The notes below the pieces were generated by a model. The model saw nothing but the letters and a program-made list of their open reading frames with translations. It was not told where the DNA came from and did no database searches. From Pseudomonadota bacterium (GTDB taxonomy: Bacteria > Pseudomonadota > Gammaproteobacteria > SURF-13), in contig JAQBXX010000006.1 of the NCBI GenBank assembly GCA_027624315.1, positions 1 through 63,180 on the forward strand: a DNA stretch of 63,180 bases, in the 5' to 3' direction. Positions 1 to 63,180 of the stretch are shown here, piece after piece. Made by a program: the position numbers and the translations under genes. Within the stretch, counting starts at the first letter, position 1, and each line of letters begins with the position of its first letter.

Positions 1-92
1 GGGGGCGGGACAGGGTGGGGGTAGAGTAAACAGGGTTTTACTCAGGAGTCACGTCACTAACGTTGTAGCCTTACTTTGTGACTCCTGAGTAA
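1..92 (+). repeat. G4/double-hairpin repeat, copy A (cut by window edge)
   Basis: Right part of the dispersed element described at 126-275. It begins inside the G-rich block (G5 C G3 ACA G3 T G5). Its terminal hairpin has 14-nt arms at 39-52 (TACTCAGGAGTCAC) and 78-91 with a 25-nt loop. It stands in tandem with copy B, separated by a short GCAAAGACGC-type repeat. The left part lies outside the window. Confidence 0.85.
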
Positions 93-119: not shown

Positions 120-125
120 AGTAGT

Positions 126-275
126 TACTCATAAGTCAGTAAGTAAGACTACACTTCCCGTTACGTCCCCGCCCCCTGTTTAGGGGGCGGGACAGGGGGG
201 GGGTAGAGTAAACAGGGTTTTTACTCAGGAGTCACAGCACTATTGTGGTAGCTTTATTTGCTGACTCCTGAGTAA
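126..275 (+). repeat. G4/double-hairpin repeat, copy B
   Basis: Complete copy of the ~150-bp family. Conserved left block TACTCATAAGTCAGTAAG, then a hairpin CCGCCCCC/GGGGGCGG, then a G-rich run (G5 C G3 ACA G9) meeting the G-quadruplex pattern, then a terminal hairpin with 13-bp arms at 222-234 and 262-274. It ends 15 bases before the serA start codon, so it must be part of the serA leader or promoter region. Other copies: 1, 9143, 14473, 19287, 32493, 41283 (reverse) and 42299. Confidence 0.9.
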
Positions 276-3764: not shown

Positions 3765-3773
3765 TGAACTACT

Positions 3774-3866
3774 CAACGCAAAGACGCCAAGGCGCAAAGT
3801 TTACAATAGTAAAAGAGAGTGCGCTGGCCCGCATTGGGTTTCTTGCGTCTTGGCGTCTTTGCGTTG
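3774..3866. repeat. Inverted pair of GCAAAGACGCC repeats
   Basis: The unit CAACGCAAAGACGCCAAGG at 3774 reappears inverted at 3842-3866 (TTGGCGTCTTTGCGTTG) with about 40 bases between. The pair fills most of the hisC-tyrA gap and could form a stem of roughly 25 bp on the transcript. A third unit lies at 93-119. Confidence 0.7.
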
Positions 3867-3878
3867 AATTTTATATAC

Positions 3879-6997: not shown

Positions 6998-7055
6998 GGT
7001 GTTCATTTAACCGCCTGCGGGTCATTCCCTTGCAGACGAGAGGTCGTGAAGCTAC

Positions 7056-8729
7056 ATGAGCGAAAGTTTTGCACAACTGTTTGAAGGAAGCCAGATCAGC
7101 AAGTTCATGCGTCCTGGCGCCATTGTCACGGGCACCGTATTACGCATACAGGACGATGTGGTGATCATTGATGCCGGACTCAAGTCCGAGGCGCTGATCC
7201 CGATCGAGCAGTTCCGTAATGAAAGCGGCGCCATCGAAGTGGCGGTGGGCGACACCGTCGATGTAGCGCTTGACGCCATTGAAGACGGCTTCGGCGAGAC
7301 TAAACTTTCGCGTGAGAAGGCCAAGCGCGATCAATCCTGGATACGGCTGGAGCGGGCGTTCGAGGCGGGCGAGGCTGTGAGCGGCCTCATCAGCGGTCGC
7401 GTCAAGGGCGGCTTCACGGTTGAGATCAATGACGTTAACGCGTTCCTGCCGGGTTCGCTCGTCGATGTGCGCCCAGTGCGCGATCCGGCCTATCTGGAAG
7501 GCAAGACCCTCGACTTCAAGATCATCAAGATTGACCGCAAGCGCAACAACGTGGTGGTGTCGCGCCGTGCTGTGGTGGAAACCGAAGGCAGTACCGAGCG
7601 CAACGCGCTGCTGGACAATTTGCAGGAAGGCCAGATGGTGAAGGGTGTAGTCAAAAACCTCACCGACTACGGCGCGTTTGTGGACCTGGGTGGAATCGAT
7701 GGCCTGTTGCATATCACCGACATGGCCTGGAAGCGCGTCAAGCATCCGGGTGACATCGTCAAGGTGGGCGACGAGATCGACGTCAAGGTGCTCAAGTTCG
7801 ACAAGGAGCGCAACCGCGTCTCACTCGGCCTGAAGCAGACGGAGGACGATCCGTGGGTCGACCTCGCGCGCCGTTACCCTCAAGGCGCACGCCTGTTCGG
7901 CAAGGTCACCAATATCGCCGATTACGGCTGTTTCGTGGAAATTGCAGACGGCGTTGAAGGCCTGGTGCACGTCTCCGAAATGGACTGGACCAACAAGAAC
8001 GTGCATCCCTCCAAGCTGGTGCAGCTCGGCGACGAGGTCGAGGTGATGGTGCTGGATATCGACGAAGAGCGCCGCCGTATTTCACTCGGCATCAAGCAGT
8101 GTCAGCCCAATCCGTGGGAAGAGTTCGGCGCGACCCATAACAAGAACGACAAGGTCAGCGGCAAGATCAAGTCCATCACCGATTTCGGCATTTTCGTCGG
8201 TCTCGATGGAGGCATCGACGGTCTGGTGCACTTGTCCGACATCTCCTGGAGCCAGCCTGGTGAAGAGGCTGTGCGTAACTACAAGAAGGGCAATGATATC
8301 GAGGCAGTCATCCTCGCCGTGGATCCGGAGCGTGAACGTATTTCGCTCGGCATCAAGCAGATGGATAAAGACCCGTTCTCCAACTTTGTCGCCGCACATC
8401 CCAAGGGCAGCATCGTGAAGGGCGTGGTGAGCGAGGTTGACGCCAAGGGCGCGGTGGTGCAACTGGGCGACGGCGTGGAAGGCACTCTGCGCGCCTCTGA
8501 TCTGGCGCGTGACCGCATCGAGGACGCGCGTACTGTGCTGAAGGTGGGTGATGAGATCGAAGCCAAGTTCATCGGTGTGGAGCGTAAAACCCGCGCCATC
8601 ACGCTTTCCATCAAGGCCAAGGACAGCGAGGAAGAGGCCGAGGCGATGCAGGACTATAGCCGCGGCAGCAGCAGCGGCACCACGCTCGGCGATATTCTCA
8701 AGGAGCACATGGGGAAAGGCGAGGCCTGA
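7056..8729 (+). CDS. rpsA: 30S ribosomal protein S1
   Basis: Six S1 RNA-binding repeats over 557 aa, the same length as E. coli S1. The first two repeats bind the ribosome and the remaining four bind mRNA in the known family. Repeats are visible by recurring blocks such as [39 protein letters not shown] and [19 protein letters not shown]. It helps load mRNAs with weak Shine-Dalgarno sequences. A GAGAGG-type site precedes the ATG. ihfB follows at 48 bases. Confidence 0.98.
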
Positions 8730-9134: not shown

Positions 9135-9142
9135 GTTTCAAT

Positions 9143-9292
9143 TACTGATAAGTCTATAAATAAGACTACACTTTCCGCTGCGTCTCTGCCCCCTGTTGAG
9201 GGGGCGGGACAGGGTGGGGGTAGAGTAAATAGGTTTCTACTCAGGAGTCACAATATAAAGTAATGTAGCCTTACTTTGTGACTCCTGAGTAA
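9143..9292 (+). repeat. G4/double-hairpin repeat, copy C
   Basis: Complete copy between the ihfB terminator and lapA. G-quadruplex motif at 9200-9220 (G5 C G3 ACA G3 T G5) overlapping the C-rich/G-rich hairpin; terminal hairpin with 14-bp arms at 9238-9251 and 9278-9291. It ends 22 bases before the lapA start, so any lapA promoter lies in or upstream of the element. Confidence 0.9.
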
Positions 9293-14466: not shown

Positions 14467-14472
14467 TGTGAC

Positions 14473-14621
14473 TACTCATAAGCCAGTAAGTAAGACTACA
14501 CTTCCCGCTGCGTCCCCGCCCCTTGTTTAGGGGGCGGGACAGGGTGGGGGTAGAGTAAACAGGTATTTACTCAGGAGTCATATTATGAGTATTGTCGCCT
14601 TACTTTATGACTCCTGATTAG
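14473..14621 (+). repeat. G4/double-hairpin repeat, copy D
   Basis: Complete copy between divergent mrcB and the NlpC gene. G-quadruplex motif 14530-14550; terminal hairpin arms 14568-14582 and 14606-14620 pair with a single mismatch. The left end begins almost at the mrcB start codon, so the element occupies the mrcB promoter/leader side. Confidence 0.9.
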
Positions 14622-19252: not shown

Positions 19253-19286
19253 GTATACGTTCTCCAAGGATGGCGATGTCAGAATT

Positions 19287-19408
19287 TATTCATAAGTCAG
19301 TAAGTAAGGCTACCCTTTCTGCTACGTCCCCGCCCCTTGTTTAGGGGGCGGGACAGGGTGGGGGTAATAGCTTATCACTCAGGAGTCACTTGTTGACTCC
19401 TGGGTGAT
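19287..19408 (+). repeat. G4/double-hairpin repeat, copy E
   Basis: Shorter copy: G-quadruplex motif 19344-19364, terminal hairpin ATCACTCAGGAGTCA (19374-19388) / TGACTCCTGGGTGAT (19394-19408) with only a 5-base loop. The stem is 15 bp with one T-G pair. The outermost T-A pair of the consensus is replaced by C-G, a compensatory change. It lies between the bufferin operon start and the end of the flavoprotein gene. Confidence 0.88.
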
Positions 19409-31174: not shown

Positions 31175-32486
31175 ATTCTTCAGCAGTCTTGTATTCCACA
31201 TACGCTTCATCCCGCAGGCTGCGTACCCAGGTCTGGGTTTCTTCTTCGATCTTGCGCTGACGGATCGCCTCGCGCGCCTGAGTACGCCGGAATTCCTCAG
31301 TGTTGTCATGGTCGCGCCGTTCCATCACTTGCACGATATGCCAGCCGAAGGAGCTTTGGAACGGCGCGCTGACCTCGTTGGGCTTGAGGGTGTTCATCGC
31401 CTCTTCGAAGCGCGGATCGAGATCGCCCGGGTTGACCCAACCGAGGGCCCCACCGTTGACGGCCGTAGCGGCATCCTCGGAGTGGGAGCGCGCCAGTCCG
31501 GCGAAGTCTTCGCCGCCGTCGATGCGTTGCTTGAGTTGTTCGAGGCGGGTCTGTGCATCCTTGTCCGAGGTGAGTTCGTTGGGACGTACCAGTATATGGC
31601 GCGCGAGCGTCTGTTTGACTATGTGCTGTTCACCGCCGCGCTGCTCGATCAACTTCGCGATATGAAAACCGCTCGCGCTGCGTATGAGATCGCTGATGTC
31701 GCCGGGCTTCATGCGCGGCACCACGTCGGCAAACACACTGGGGAGTTGCGCCGCCGTACGCCAGCCGAGATCGCCACCCTGCATGGCTTGCGGGTCCTGC
31801 GAGACGGAGGCAGCCGTATCGGTGAAGCTCGCGCCTGCACGCAGTCTGTCCAGCACCTGCTGGGCCTTGGCTTGCGCCGCCTGTACCTTTTCCGGTGCAG
31901 CGGCCTCAGGCAGTCCGATCAGTATCTGCGCCACATGGTATTCATTGCCCGCGCTGGCGCCCTGTGCTCCCTGCATGGTGAGAAAGTCGCCGATTTCCTG
32001 GTCGGTGACGTTGATGCGGCTGTCCACCTGACGTTGGCGCAGGCGGTTGATGATGATCTCCTGGCGGATATTTTCGCGGAATAGCGCGAAGTCGAAGCCG
32101 TCACGCGTAAGGATGTCGCGGAACTCACTCAGTGTGATGTTGTTTTGTTTGGCAATGGTGTTGATGGCGCGGGCCAGCGTGTCGTCATCCACGCGGATAC
32201 CGGTGCTTTCCGCAAGCTGCAGCTGCAGATGCTTGACGATGAGGCGCTCCAGCACCTGTTTTTGCAGAACCTCGACGGGGGGAATCTCAATATTCTGCTG
32301 GCGTAGTTGTTGCGTGATGGTACGCATCTCGGTGGCAAGTTCGCTCTGGGTGATGACGTCGTTGTTCACCACCGCGAGGATTCTGTCCAGGGCGATGACG
32401 CTTGTTCGCGCGGCCTTGGGCTCTGCCGCATGCAGCGCTGAAAACGGTAGCAACAGAACAGCTGCAAACAGATAACGTAACTTCAT
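31173..32486 (-). CDS. surA: Periplasmic chaperone / peptidyl-prolyl isomerase SurA
   Basis: Escorts outer-membrane proteins, including LptD, through the periplasm. The 437-aa protein has a signal peptide (LRYLFAAVLLLPFSALHAAE), the N-terminal chaperone domain (DRILAVVNNDVITQSEL), and two parvulin domains (about 178-280 and 287-390; second with EDFAGLARSHSED and NGGALGWVNPG). Encoded directly downstream of lptD but separated from it by repeat copy F. Confidence 0.96.
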   Translation of the reverse strand: MKLRYLFAAVLLLPFSALHAAEPKAARTSVIALDRILAVVNNDVITQSELATEMRTITQQLRQQNIEIPPVEVLQKQVLERLIVKHLQLQLAESTGIRVDDDTLARAINTIAKQNNITLSEFRDILTRDGFDFALFRENIRQEIIINRLRQRQVDSRINVTDQEIGDFLTMQGAQGASAGNEYHVAQILIGLPEAAAPEKVQAAQAKAQQVLDRLRAGASFTDTAASVSQDPQAMQGGDLGWRTAAQLPSVFADVVPRMKPGDISDLIRSASGFHIAKLIEQRGGEQHIVKQTLARHILVRPNELTSDKDAQTRLEQLKQRIDGGEDFAGLARSHSEDAATAVNGGALGWVNPGDLDPRFEEAMNTLKPNEVSAPFQSSFGWHIVQVMERRDHDNTEEFRRTQAREAIRQRKIEEETQTWVRSLRDEAYVEYKTAEE

Positions 32487-32492
32487 CGGAAT

Positions 32493-32642
32493 GACTCATA
32501 AGTCAGTAATTAAGGCTACGCTCTCCTACACGTCCCCGCCCCCTGTTGAGGGGGCGGGACAGGGTGGGGGTAGAGTAAACCAGGGTTTTTACTCGGGAGA
32601 CACCTGGCCCATAGTATATCTTGCTTGGTGTCTCCCGAGTGA
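32493..32642 (+). repeat. G4/double-hairpin repeat, copy F (compensated stem)
   Basis: Complete copy between lptD and surA. G-quadruplex motif 32550-32570. The terminal stem is ACTCGGGAGACACC (32591-32604) / GGTGTCTCCCGAGT (32627-32640), perfect over 14 bp. Against the family stem ACTCAGGAGTCAC two positions have changed, and both partners have changed with them (A-T to G-C and T-A to A-T). The left end starts seven bases from the surA start codon. Confidence 0.92.
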
Positions 32643-34926: not shown

Positions 34927-35027
34927 AAGGCGACTCTTGTTAGTTATAGGAACCTGCGTAAAATCGCATAGAATGACGTTAGATTCAATCACTTTCAGAC
35001 GCCAACCCACTCTTGAGCCTGGCCGCC

Positions 35028-38635: not shown

Positions 38636-39743
38636 ATGCTCGAACTCAATCCCGTCTTCACCCGCATCAAAGAACTCCAGGGGCGTTATCAGACCCTGAG
38701 GGGGTATCTTTGACTTCGACCACAAGCGCGAACGCCTGACCGAAGTCGAGCGCGAGCTGGCCGATCCCGCTGTCTGGGGTAACGCCGAGCGTGCGCAGGA
38801 ACTGGGGCGCGAACGTGTGCAACTGACCCAGGTGGTGACGACACTGTCCGCGCTTGAAGGCGGCCTTGCCGATGCGCAGTCCTTGCTGGGAATGGCGCAG
38901 GAGGAGGGCGATGAGGTTACGGTAAACGCCGTCGTCGCCGATCTCGACAAGTCGGAAAAACAGTTGGCGCAACTTGAGTTCCGACGCATGTTTTCCAATC
39001 CGATGGATCCGAATAACGCCTTTCTCGACATCCAGTCCGGCTCCGGCGGTACCGAGGCGCAGGACTGGGCCAGCATGCTGCTGCGCATGTATCTGCGCTG
39101 GGCCGAGCGGCGCGGTTTTCGCACCGAAGTGATCGATCATGCGCCGGGTGAAGTGGCCGGCATCAAGGGCGCCAGCGTCAAGATTGAGGGTGATTACGCC
39201 TACGGCTGGTTGCGCACCGAGACCGGCGTGCACCGGCTGGTACGCAAGTCGCCGTTCGACTCGGGCAACCGCCGCCATACCTCGTTTGCCTCGGTATTCG
39301 TCACGCCTGAGGTGGACGAGAGCATCGAGATAGACATCAATCCCGCCGATCTCAAGGTCGACACCTACCGCGCCAGCGGTGCCGGCGGCCAGCATGTGAA
39401 CCGCACCGAATCCGCCATCCGCATCACGCACCTGCCAACCAACACTGTGGTACAGTGCCAGAGCGACCGCTCACAGCATAAAAACCGCGCCACCGCGATG
39501 AGCCAGTTGAAGGCGAAACTGTATGAGCGCGAAATGCAAAAACGCAACGCGGAAAAACAGGTGCTGGAAGACTCCAAATCGGACATCGGCTGGGGCAGCC
39601 AGATACGTTCCTACGTGCTGGATCAGTCGCGCATCAAGGATCTGCGTACCGGAGTAGAGAAGGCCAATACGCAGGCAGTGCTGGACGGTGATCTGGACGA
39701 CTTTATTGAGGCGAGTTTGAAACAACAAGTGGCTAGTGGCTAG
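38636..39743 (+). CDS. prfB: Peptide chain release factor 2, with programmed +1 frameshift
   Basis: Terminates translation at UAA/UGA. The first 25 codons (38636-38710, [16 protein letters not shown]...) end at an in-frame TGA (38711). After a +1 shift the frame continues from GAC at 38712 to 39743, giving about 368 aa. The body has [20 protein letters not shown], the catalytic GGQ in [15 protein letters not shown], and [15 protein letters not shown]. No strong ribosome site is seen before ATG 38636; GTG 38612 in the same frame is an alternative. lysS follows as usual. Confidence 0.95.
38699..38714 (+). promoter_or_regulatory. RF2 +1 recoding site
   Basis: AGGGGGTATCTTTGAC contains the classic elements: an internal Shine-Dalgarno-like AGGGGG, slippery CTT, stop TGA and following C. 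Low RF2 leads to a pause at UGA and a +1 slip, so RF2 controls its own synthesis. Confidence 0.96.
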
Positions 39744-39757
39744 TGGCGAGTGGCGAG
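39728..39757. repeat. GTGGCTAGTGGC short repeat before lysS
   Basis: CAAGTGGCTAGTGGCTAGTG plus GCGAGTGGCGAG at the end of prfB and in the prfB-lysS gap. The last prfB codons (QVASG) are written in this repeat. Related repeats lie at 1459 and 31084. Confidence 0.5.
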
Positions 39758-39774: not shown

Positions 39775-41283
39775 ATGAGCGACGAAAATAACAACATTTC
39801 CTCCGACGAAAACGCGCAGATCGCGCAGCGGCGCGCGAAGCTGGCTGCATTGCGCGCGCAGGGCAATCCCTTTCCCAATCACTTCCGGCGCGACAGCCTC
39901 GCTGCCGGACTGCACGAGAAATACGGTGCGCTCGACAACGCCGCGCTGGAAGGTGAATCGGTGCGCGTGAAGGTGGCCGGGCGCATGATGGCGAAGCGCG
40001 TCATGGGCAAGGCGAGCTTCGCGCAGATACAGGACATGTCGGGGCGCATTCAACTGTTTGTGCAGCGCGATGCCGTTTCCGCCGAGTGCTACGAAGAAGG
40101 TTTCAAGAAGTGGGACATCGGCGATATCCTCGGGGCCGAAGGCACGCTGTTCAAGACCAAGACCGGCGAGCTGTCAGTGCGCGTGGATGGCATAGGTCTG
40201 CTCACCAAGTCGCTGCGCCCGCTGCCGGAAAAATTTCACGGTCTGGTAGATCAGGAAATACGCTATCGCCAGCGTTATCTTGATCTCATCATGAATGAGG
40301 ATACGCGCAAGGTCTTTGAGCTGCGCACGCGTATCATCAATTTCATGCGTAGCTTTCTCGCCGAACACAATTTCCTCGAAGTGGAAACGCCGATGATGCA
40401 CGTGATACCGGGTGGAGCGACGGCGCGCCCGTTCAAGACGCATCACAACGCACTCGGCATGGACATGTTTCTGCGTATAGCGCCGGAACTCTATTTGAAG
40501 CGCCTGGTGGTGGGCGGCTTTGAACGCGTGTTCGAGATCAACCGCAGCTTTCGCAATGAGGGATTGTCCACGCGTCATAATCCCGAATTCACCATGCTGG
40601 AGTTTTATCAGGCCTATGCGGACTACAACGATCTCATGGACCTCACCGAGGTCATGCTGCGCAAGCTGATGCATGACGTGCTCGGCACGATGAGCATCGC
40701 TTGTCAGGGGCATCAGTTTGATTTCAGCAAGCCATTTGCCCGTCGCACGGTGCAGGATGCCATATTGCATTTCAATCCGCATCTGCGTGACGCTGATCTG
40801 GAGTCGCTAGCCGCGGCGCGCATGGCCGCTGCGGCGTTGCATATCCCGCTCAAGGACAGTTACGGGCTGGGCAAGGTGCAGCTTGAAATATTTGAGAAGA
40901 CCGTGGAGCAGCATCTGCAAAATCCCACCTTCATCACCGCCTTCCCCACCGAGGTGTCGCCGCTTGCCCGCTGCAACACCGCAGATCCGTTCGTCACTGA
41001 CCGCTTCGAGCTGTTCGTCGGCGGGCGCGAGATCGCCAACGGCTTTTCTGAATTAAACGACGCGGAAGATCAGGCTGAACGTTTTCGCAGGCAGGCGAAA
41101 GAGAAAGACGCGGGAGATGACGAGGCGATGCACTACGATGCCGACTACATCCGCGCACTCGAATACGGTATGCCGCCGACGGCTGGTGAAGGTATCGGCA
41201 TCGACCGCCTGGTGATGCTGCTCACCGACTCAGCCTCCATCCGCGATGTGCTGCTATTTCCGCATATGCGGCCGGAAACCTGA
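39775..41283 (+). CDS. lysS: Lysyl-tRNA synthetase, class II
   Basis: Charges tRNA-Lys. The 502-aa protein has an N-terminal OB-fold anticodon domain (about 65-150, [21 protein letters not shown]) and a class II catalytic domain with motif 2 ([20 protein letters not shown]) and motif 3 ([18 protein letters not shown]). ATG 39775 (MSDENNN) was chosen over an upstream start lying in repeat sequence. Its stop TGA is formed by the edge of repeat copy G. Confidence 0.97.
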
Positions 41284-41380
41284 GTAAATACCGTGTTTAC
41301 CCTACCTCCACCCTGTCCCGCCCCCTGAACAGGGGGCGGGAGCCTATCGGGAAGTATAGCCTTGCTCATGGCCTTATGAG
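41283..41380 (-). repeat. G4/double-hairpin repeat, copy G (reverse, truncated)
   Basis: The only copy in reverse orientation. A perfect 10-bp stem CCCGCCCCCT / AGGGGGCGGG lies at 41317-41340. The G-run on the minus strand is damaged (GGAGG in place of the last G5). The terminal hairpin is cut inside its first arm (TACTCAGG), where lysS coding sequence begins. It lies between lysS and the HDOD gene. Confidence 0.85.
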
Positions 41381-61567: not shown

Positions 61568-63180
61568 CTACCGCTCTGCATGTTCCGAAACCACCACGAT
61601 CACGCGCTGATTGCCGTAGACGATTTGCACCTGAATGGGCAACGCTCCATCAGGAACAGCCGAGGCGACGAAGGTCTTATTTTCCGGCACGTAACGTAGC
61701 CACGAAGGCAATGGCGTTCCCGCCAATGTGGTGATCACTACATTCGCCCCGCTTCCGGAGGCAGCTTCAGCCACCTGCGACGGCAGTGGGAAGCTGAAAC
61801 CTTCACCCTGGGTCGCCGTATCCTTGGGCACGGATACCGAGATCAGACCGCTATCCACGACTGACGGCTGACGAACCAGCGACACCGCAACGCCACCCCT
61901 GCCGGTGGCGCCCGCATCGCCGGAAAAGGTCGAGCCGCCCGACGAGGTCGCATTGGAACCGGCGGGCTGCAACGTAAGCGGAGGCGGTGCGTTGGTCACG
62001 GGCGGCAAAGCTGGAGGTGGTGGAGGTGGTGGCGGTGGAACCACGACCGGCGAGGCAGTGACCACTGCCGCACTCACCGAAAGCGTGTAGTTGGCGCTGG
62101 CCGTCCCGTAGTTGCCGCTGGCCGCCTGCGCGGCGCTGATGGTGGCGCTGCCAGCACTGACAATCGTCACCGCCCCGGTGGTGGAGTTAACTGTGGCCAC
62201 GCTGGTGTTGCTTGATGAATAGGTAATCGTACCGTCGCTCGCGCTCGTGGGGGCGAGCGTGTAGGCTGCGTCCCCGACAGTCTTGGTCTGGTTGGAAAGC
62301 CCCGTGAGCGTGGGCGTAGCCGTGCCCACCGTCAGGGCGTAATTGCTGGTGCCAGAATTGTTGTAGTTACCATTGGCCGCCTGGGTGGCAGTGATGGTGG
62401 CACTGCCCGCACCGATCAGCGTGACTTCGCCCGTACTTGCATTCACCGTCGCCACCGCCGTGTCGCTGCTGGCGTAGCTGATAGCGCCAGCGCTATTGCT
62501 GGTGGCCGCCAGCGTATAGGCCGCTCCACCATAGGTCTTAGACTGCGCCGAGAGTCCGCTCAGGCTCGGGGTGGCAGTGCCCACCGTCAGGGCGTAGAGA
62601 TCGTTTGCCGTGTTGTAGTTGGTGTTCGAGGCTGCAGTGGCCGTAATGTTGGCTGTGCCCGCACCGACGATCGTCACTGCGCCCGTACTTGTATTCACCG
62701 TCGCTACGCTGGTATTGCTCGAAGCATAGGTGACAGACCCTGCACCTGCGGTAGCTGTCGCCGCCTGGGTGTAGATTGAGTCCCCATAGGTCTTGCTGGC
62801 ATCTACACCAGCATTAACCGTCGGCGTCCCTTTGTCGACCGTCAACGTATACGAGCCACTCGTTGCAGCATAATTTGCATTTTCGGCCACACTCGCCGTG
62901 ATGGTGGCGCTGCCCGCGCCCACGATTGTGACCGCGCCCGTGCTCGCGTTGACCGTGCCCACCGCCGTATTGCTCGAAGCGTAGCTGATGGTCCCCGCCC
63001 CATCCGTCACGGTGGCCGCTACCGTATACGCCGCGCCCCCGAATGTTTTGGTTTGGTTGGAAAGCCCTGAGACCGTCGGTACCAGTCTGTCATTGGGGTT
63101 GGCAAATGAGACCGTGCCGGTTCCCGTTAGAAAGCGATTCAGCGTGGCCGGAATGGCCGTCCCGCTTGCACAGGTTGTGG
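61568..63180 (-). CDS. C-terminal part of a large Ig-repeat surface/secreted protein (partial)
   Basis: Open to the right window edge, at least 536 aa. At least four tandem repeats of about 80-85 residues follow the pattern KTYGGAAYTLAAT..ISYASSDTAVATVNASTG..VTLIGAGSATITAT, similar to bacterial Ig-like (Big_2/MBG-type) domains of adhesins and haemagglutinin-like proteins. Then a proline tract (VPPPPPPPPPALPP), a Gly/Ser-rich linker and a C-terminal domain (LPSWLRYVPENKTFVASAVPDGALP). Likely a secreted adhesin; the start and secretion signal lie outside the window. Confidence 0.8.
   Translation of the reverse strand, partial: TTCASGTAIPATLNRFLTGTGTVSFANPNDRLVPTVSGLSNQTKTFGGAAYTVAATVTDGAGTISYASSNTAVGTVNASTGAVTIVGAGSATITASVAENANYAATSGSYTLTVDKGTPTVNAGVDASKTYGDSIYTQAATATAGAGSVTYASSNTSVATVNTSTGAVTIVGAGTANITATAASNTNYNTANDLYALTVGTATPSLSGLSAQSKTYGGAAYTLAATSNSAGAISYASSDTAVATVNASTGEVTLIGAGSATITATQAANGNYNNSGTSNYALTVGTATPTLTGLSNQTKTVGDAAYTLAPTSASDGTITYSSSNTSVATVNSTTGAVTIVSAGSATISAAQAASGNYGTASANYTLSVSAAVVTASPVVVPPPPPPPPPALPPVTNAPPPLTLQPAGSNATSSGGSTFSGDAGATGRGGVAVSLVRQPSVVDSGLISVSVPKDTATQGEGFSFPLPSQVAEAASGSGANVVITTLAGTPLPSWLRYVPENKTFVASAVPDGALPIQVQIVYGNQRVIVVVSEHAER

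Follow-up and report, generated by a model that had tools for sequence, protein, structure and literature searches.

Matched changes in the arms of a dispersed bacterial hairpin are probably left by arm-to-arm template switching

Compensatory base changes are usually taken as proof that the fold of an RNA is important. Contig JAQBXX010000006.1 from a gammaproteobacterium (SURF-13; assembly GCA_027624315.1), of which we analyzed positions 1 to 63,180 (the window), contains a dispersed repeat that ends in a hairpin, and the two arms of this hairpin change together from copy to copy. From two copies (copies F and E), the first-pass annotation concluded that pairing itself is selected. What, then, keeps the arms complementary? 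The covariation is confined to this 3' hairpin, it extends past the end of the element, and arms have been rewritten in situ between orthologous insertions. The arms are probably kept complementary by arm-to-arm template switching (quasipalindrome correction), and we infer that template switching during replication is the agent. Selection for a folded RNA is not needed to explain the pattern of the 3' hairpin, and it may still act in addition.

Copy F is complete, and its parts are as follows.

32492..32642, + strand: copy F, a complete 151-nt element between lptD and surA (covariance model E 2e-36; the same insertion is found as L217/L162; lptD and surA identified by Pfam)
32492..32519, + strand: 5' terminal inverted repeat, from the family consensus
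32532..32560, + strand: hairpin 1, a GC hairpin preceded by CGTC, GTCCCCGCCCCCTGTTGAGGGGGCGGGAC (one-sided variation, no covariation)
32550..32573, + strand: near-invariant G-rich block GGGGGCGGGACAGGGTGGGGGTAG, a quadruplex-like motif (invariant columns in 68 copies)
32589..32603, + strand: 3' hairpin, inner (left) arm, TTACTCGGGAGACAC
32628..32642, + strand: 3' hairpin, right arm, plus the bases presumed to be the target duplication and the first host base, GTGTCTCCCGAGTGA

The matched changes are as the first-pass annotation described them. The left arm of copy F, ACTCGGGAGACAC (32591-32603), and its right arm, GTGTCTCCCGAGT (32628-32640), reflect two differences from ACTCAGGAGTCAC, one from A-T to G-C and the other from T-A to A-T. 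In copy E (19374-19408), C-G replaces the outer T-A, and there is one T.G pair. The loop was also said to vary freely, but in most copies it is 24-26 nt, within an element of about 151 nt in total; copy E (3-5 nt) and L133 (5 nt) are short-loop exceptions. A sister species carries the orthologous insertion (L217/L162) with an identical GGGAGAC/GTCTCCC stem, so the copy F variant is not a recent event.

The repeat is a non-autonomous mobile element of about 151 bp without a gene, similar to miniature inverted-repeat transposable elements (MITEs); that it moves is seen from empty sites in a sister species (given below). In an alignment of 68 copies, the consensus is 151 nt long and lacks coding capacity. 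The terminal inverted repeats are 25 bp and imperfect: about 21 of 25 positions agree between the consensus ends, as counted by eye (CTCATAAGTCAGTAAGTAAGRCTAC at the 5' end versus GTAGCCTTACTTTGTGACTCCTGAG at the 3' end). The 3' terminus also pairs with an inner copy of itself, which gives a palindrome of 13-27 bp. The consensus of the repeat reads TTA-CTCATAAGTCAGTAAGTAAGRCTACACTTCCCGCTACGTCCCCGCCCCCTGTTTAGGGGGCGGGACAGGGTGGGGGTAGAGTAAACAGGGTTTTTACTCAGGAGTCAC-loop-GTGACTCCTGAG-TAA. The target duplication is 2 bp and usually TA (TA/TA in 73 of 130 copies), and the flanks are mostly T-TA on the left and TA-A on the right. Because the non-TA cases match across both flanks more often than expected (six copies with an identical non-TA dinucleotide versus 1.6 expected, p 0.002), the dinucleotide is a target duplication. 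A short noncoding element with terminal inverted repeats and a target-site duplication fits the description of a MITE of the DDE type with a TA target.

In the 3' hairpin of the 68 aligned copies, 96.4% of the cells are paired, and two-sided changes occur at 10 of the 15 pairs. These amount to 50 two-sided cells, compared to a mean of 8.9 after shuffling and 6 or fewer in slid versions. Across 99 distinct copies, there were 164 variant stem cells, of which 67 were Watson-Crick and 39 were G.T; when the right arms were re-dealt among copies (2000 trials), the mean was 9.9 Watson-Crick cells and the maximum was 18. We also tested covariation against our own tree-based null, which resembles that of R-scape, using 133 copies and 7503 column pairs. 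The top two column pairs were both stem pairs (within the 15-pair set, E was 3e-5 for one and 0.002 for the other), so the covariation that the first-pass annotation called for is present; most of the remaining stem pairs had E of 0.05-0.2, and the power for each pair is modest. The tree count of 56 changes from one Watson-Crick pair to another is approximate, as the tree is weak (about 95 core bases) and copies may recombine. Thus, by the re-dealing, slid, and tree controls, complementarity rather than sequence persists, beyond what copying of whole elements would give, and this part of the earlier interpretation stands.

The longest stems are nearly free of wobble pairs. In 23 stems of 20-27 bp, 544 of 549 pairs (99.1%) are Watson-Crick and just 3 are G.T, although this figure is somewhat flattered because the stems were chosen for length with a mismatch penalty. 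The mean arm-to-arm identity of these stems is 38%. Nor is there a clear strand bias: a hand count in the first 99 copies gave a G.T:A.C ratio of 12:4, but the ratio was 16:10 in 143 copies, and we dropped the idea of a strand preference. No other part of the element behaves like the 3' hairpin. The two ends of the element, if paired with each other as terminal inverted repeats, show no covariation above that in shuffles, so we rejected the terminal-repeat stem as a paired structure. Hairpin 1 has no two-sided change in the 68 copies; its left arm changes from C to T while the G side is invariant at most positions, and we rejected it as a covarying structure as well.

The pairing does not stop at the end of the element. 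Of 11 copies with a deviant inner-arm base opposite base 2 of the target duplication, 8 form a pair there (0.97 expected). Opposite the first host base, 4 of 6 do so (0.86 expected, p 0.004), and the effect fades outwards. Since such bases are new at every insertion, a match to them must arise in place or at insertion. In L238, the right duplication is CA and is paired with an inner G, while the empty site in L055 is TA.

Orthologous insertions indicate how arms change. Compared to its ortholog L099, L239 has an 8-nt deletion that removed TCCTGAGT from the right arm, and the host sequence TTATGGG now abuts GTGTC. The left arm of L239 went from TTACTCAGGAGACAC to TCACCCATAAGACAC by four substitutions and now complements the host sequence exactly, across all seven bases. 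L237 and L214 have the right arm CCTGCTTAA in common: L214 has the consensus left arm, with two mismatches, and in the left arm of L237 (TTAAGCAGG) two adjacent bases have changed and now match the right arm. Neither new left arm (L239 or L237) occurs as a left arm in any other copy that we compared. L252 and L260 each form a perfect palindrome of about 25 bp. Four two-sided substitutions (three of them adjacent) and a paired 1-bp deletion separate them, and none of the roughly 25 pairs has changed on one side only; their core and left flank differ by 4-6%. We infer that L239, L237, and L252/L260 each reflect a multi-base change that perfected the palindrome in a single step. Compensation at target-duplication and host bases, and clustered complementary rewrites in orthologs, do not support the other part of the earlier interpretation, that is, selection on pairing.

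Inverted loops are another trace that template switching would be expected to leave; 10 of 137 loops were closer to an inverse, and these were mostly palindromic loops. The loops of two other ortholog pairs (L034/L203 and L053/L212) differ in dense clusters, at about 10 of 25 bases, while their stems are identical and their core and left flank differ by 4-9%. This is possibly hairpin-associated hypermutation.

Covariation past the element, in situ rewrites, near-absent wobble, and the lack of strand bias together form the pattern that arm-to-arm templated correction would leave. In the mechanism we propose, the palindrome would be a hotspot for template switching (a quasipalindrome). Point mutations, deletions, and insertion at a new site could each create a mismatch, and this would be the trigger; nascent DNA would fold back, and one arm would be copied from the other. 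Either the old pair would be restored or the change would be written into both arms, and the rewriting might sometimes extend across the target duplication and reach the first host bases. Quasipalindrome correction is a known mutation mechanism. Template switching has been proposed to make and maintain hairpins with compensatory changes, RNA hairpins among them (PMC8794818); arm homogenization has been described in yeast (PMC8604942) and quasipalindrome mutation hotspots in E. coli (PMC6357072, PMC7202029). It is quite possible, although we lean slightly against it, that the covariation is wholly mutational, with arms rewritten in situ faster than point mutations accumulate and a structure that persists without selection.

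The C-terminal domain of ExoI (PF08411) had no match in any of the six genomes of the source family (G000-G005), and it matched in 10 of the 34 genomes searched. ExoI reportedly aborts template switching in E. coli (Laranjo et al. 2017, as cited in PMC6357072). The absence of ExoI, which is common in the class, may make arm rewriting unusually frequent in this family.

Several observations weigh against template switching. The stem of hairpin 1 is equally long and its loop is tight, yet T.G pairs remain uncorrected in it (at one pair, in 25 of 68 copies). Correction therefore does not act everywhere, unless it is blocked by the invariant G side of hairpin 1. The upper part of the 3' stem is not homogenized in most copies; foldback copying would tend to spare the upper part, but the same would be expected of a 13-bp stem under selection. 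The ortholog pairs of copy F and L102/L241 have had one-sided changes only since the species split, including an uncompensated change from GAG to GAA at the foot of the stem in L217/L162. Clean in situ events are few: three ortholog pairs, plus L238 compared to the empty site. Finally, all of the genomes are metagenome-assembled genomes (MAGs), and the in situ cases depend on these assemblies.

We also considered whether selection maintains the pairing, either during transposition or in RNA; taken together, these two possibilities are rather unlikely. If the 3' hairpin were needed for movement as single-stranded DNA or as a cruciform, then only copies with matched arms would spread, and subfamilies would arise by compensatory mutation. 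This would account for covariation limited to a hairpin at one end, for long stems of unrelated sequence that are all nearly perfect, and for the lack of strand bias, which is expected for DNA. The element is mobile, too. There is a clean empty TA site (AATGC-TA-TCACC) in the sister species, at L145, which is filled at L027; few insertions are common to congeners (about 10 of the copies compared between G000 and its congener G002); and the window itself has an empty site:

34995..35006, no strand: empty site by comparison with the sister species, in which it is filled (L143 about 7000-7155, also L089)

G000 also contains four Y1-type transposase genes. However, none of them adjoins the repeat, and no Y1 match was found in G002 despite its roughly 67 copies, so we rejected mobilization by Y1/RAYT. 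A 2-bp duplication is also at odds with IS200/IS605 chemistry. Furthermore, each insertion supplies new duplication and host bases, which means that compensation there is not heritable via transposition, and copies that are fixed and orthologous also carry rewrites, one of which matches host DNA. Selection on the DNA is therefore unlikely to be the explanation.

Selection on RNA structure in the transcripts of neighboring genes, by way of mRNA stability, termination, or control by RNase III, is the reading to which the first-pass annotation points, but it seems less probable still. The stem is strong (DNA folding z about -8), the 3' hairpin covaries as the base pairs of a conserved structured RNA do, and copies lie within tens of bases of genes, as copy F does between lptD and surA. 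But such an RNA should keep to one position and orientation with respect to transcribed genes, and no such consistency was found: with neighboring genes called by a simple open reading frame (ORF) rule, 25 copies are tandem against the genes, 15 are tandem with them, 13 are divergent, and 12 are convergent. We rejected an intrinsic terminator because there is no T-run 3' of the hairpin. The near absence of wobble in long stems and the 16:10 ratio also argue against RNA, and the few insertions common to congeners give little sign of a conserved function at each locus. A search of the window against Rfam found just two tRNAs and no described RNA family for the repeat. The least probable account, which we doubt strongly, is that the covariation is purely phylogenetic, a product of subfamily inheritance plus gene conversion that carries whole hairpins from copy to copy. 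One subfamily is indeed marked by the commonest double change (GAGTCAC to GAGACAC), and L011 and L093 look as if most of the element was replaced at one site. But the slid and tree-based controls do not reproduce the signal, and the host-derived arm of L239 has no donor copy.

The covariance model had 99 matches in G000 (1.43 Mb) and 110 in G002, totals that include many opposite-strand readings of the hairpin; after de-duplication, 67 distinct copies, studied with the stretches around them, came from each genome. There were 93 matches in G004, from the same family, and a few in G001 and G003. In a class-wide sample, the model matched in 6 of 274 genomes: three from the source family and three others (G027, G086, and G210). 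When GTDB genomes were scanned for the exact pattern, the sister MAG was the sole hit, and a plasmid collection gave no match. We did not find an autonomous version: six extra sites with the 5' terminal repeat, outside the model list, were shortened or internally expanded copies only, and DDE families were not searched genome-wide. Some copies (L039, L040, and L046; L268, L270, L231, and L235) have a module inserted in the core, which is about 22-26 nt long (CCTGCCCCCGGCTTGAGCGGGGG) or consists of three small inverted repeats spanning about 80 nt. L148 and L043, from two species, have copies of differing orientation and subfamily that share an intergenic region and lie about 25 bp from each other; these are independent insertions at one shared spot.

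Within the window, the hairpin motif occurs 28 times with up to 3 mismatches, compared to 11.6 +/- 3.6 in shuffles. Besides copy F, the window contains these copies of the element:

1..92, + strand: copy clipped by the window start, hairpin intact
125..275, + strand: complete copy; a predicted ORF starts 15 nt downstream
9142..9292, + strand: complete copy
14472..14621, + strand: complete copy
19286..19407, + strand: copy E, short loop, TCACTCAGGAGTCAC / TTGACTCCTGGGTGA
41279..41380, - strand: copy without the right hairpin arm; the site is empty in L143
42298..42439, + strand: complete copy, shortened loop

Copy F is about 5 nt upstream of the start codon of surA and 4 nt from the end of lptD (32486-32492), so the ribosome-binding region of surA must derive from the sequence of the element. 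The G-rich block GGGGGCGGGACAGGGTGGGGGTAG is present in every copy and is the best-conserved part of the element; it has four G-runs, and its C-rich partner arm is variable. This block may have a sequence-specific role. The window also contains another short repeat, TTGCGTCTTAGCGTCTTTGCGTTGAA, which is dispersed and occurs in both orientations (91-120, 3773-3801, and 3843-3868); two copies of a 30-nt repeat of the AGTGGCGAGTGGCTAG type that are 93% identical (1458-1487 and 39728-39757); and four tandem 255-bp units (62104-63079) within and just past an ORF at 61568-63010 (- strand), whose protein has bacterial Ig-like (Big_2) domains.

How does the repeat compare to known systems? Like the bacterial MITEs NEMIS/Correia, RUP, and Nezha, it is short, noncoding, and intergenic, with terminal repeats of about 25 bp and a moderately high copy number. 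Those elements also duplicate TA. Unlike them, it has an extra 3' hairpin whose arms covary independently of the 5' terminal repeat, and we found no partner transposase. As in REPs and CGTC-tagged palindromes, the latter without a dedicated transposase, the core has a GC-rich hairpin preceded by CGTC (PMC3733652). However, it is a 151-bp composite with terminal repeats and a duplication, not a GTAG- or CGTC-tagged palindrome of 20-40 bp, and no Y1_Tnp gene adjoins it, so it does not belong with RAYT/REP. Palindromic elements derived from IS200/IS605 likewise have a single hairpin near one end, but the target duplication and the lack of an associated Y1 transposase set the repeat apart from that group. 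There is also a parallel with quasipalindrome template-switch mutations, as at the thyA and lacZ hotspots of E. coli (PMC7202029, PMC6357072) and in the upkeep of hairpins (PMC8794818): on our reading, both perfect an inverted repeat with one arm as the template, and both make multi-base compensatory changes in one step. Our case differs in that it comes from evolutionary comparison, involves about 67 dispersed mobile copies per genome, reaches into host flanks, and yields family-wide covariation.

With dozens of natural replicates per genome, matched changes that cross into host DNA and follow a deletion point to copying between arms, and matched changes alone need not prove that an RNA structure is at work. 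If this is correct, then dispersed bacterial palindromes would need a control for template switching, based on orthologous insertions, host-flank pairing, and a deficit of wobble pairs. If the covariation is wholly mutational, then a standard covariation test would report a structure that no selection maintains. This repeat family would also be a natural system for measuring the rate at which template switching rewrites hairpins.
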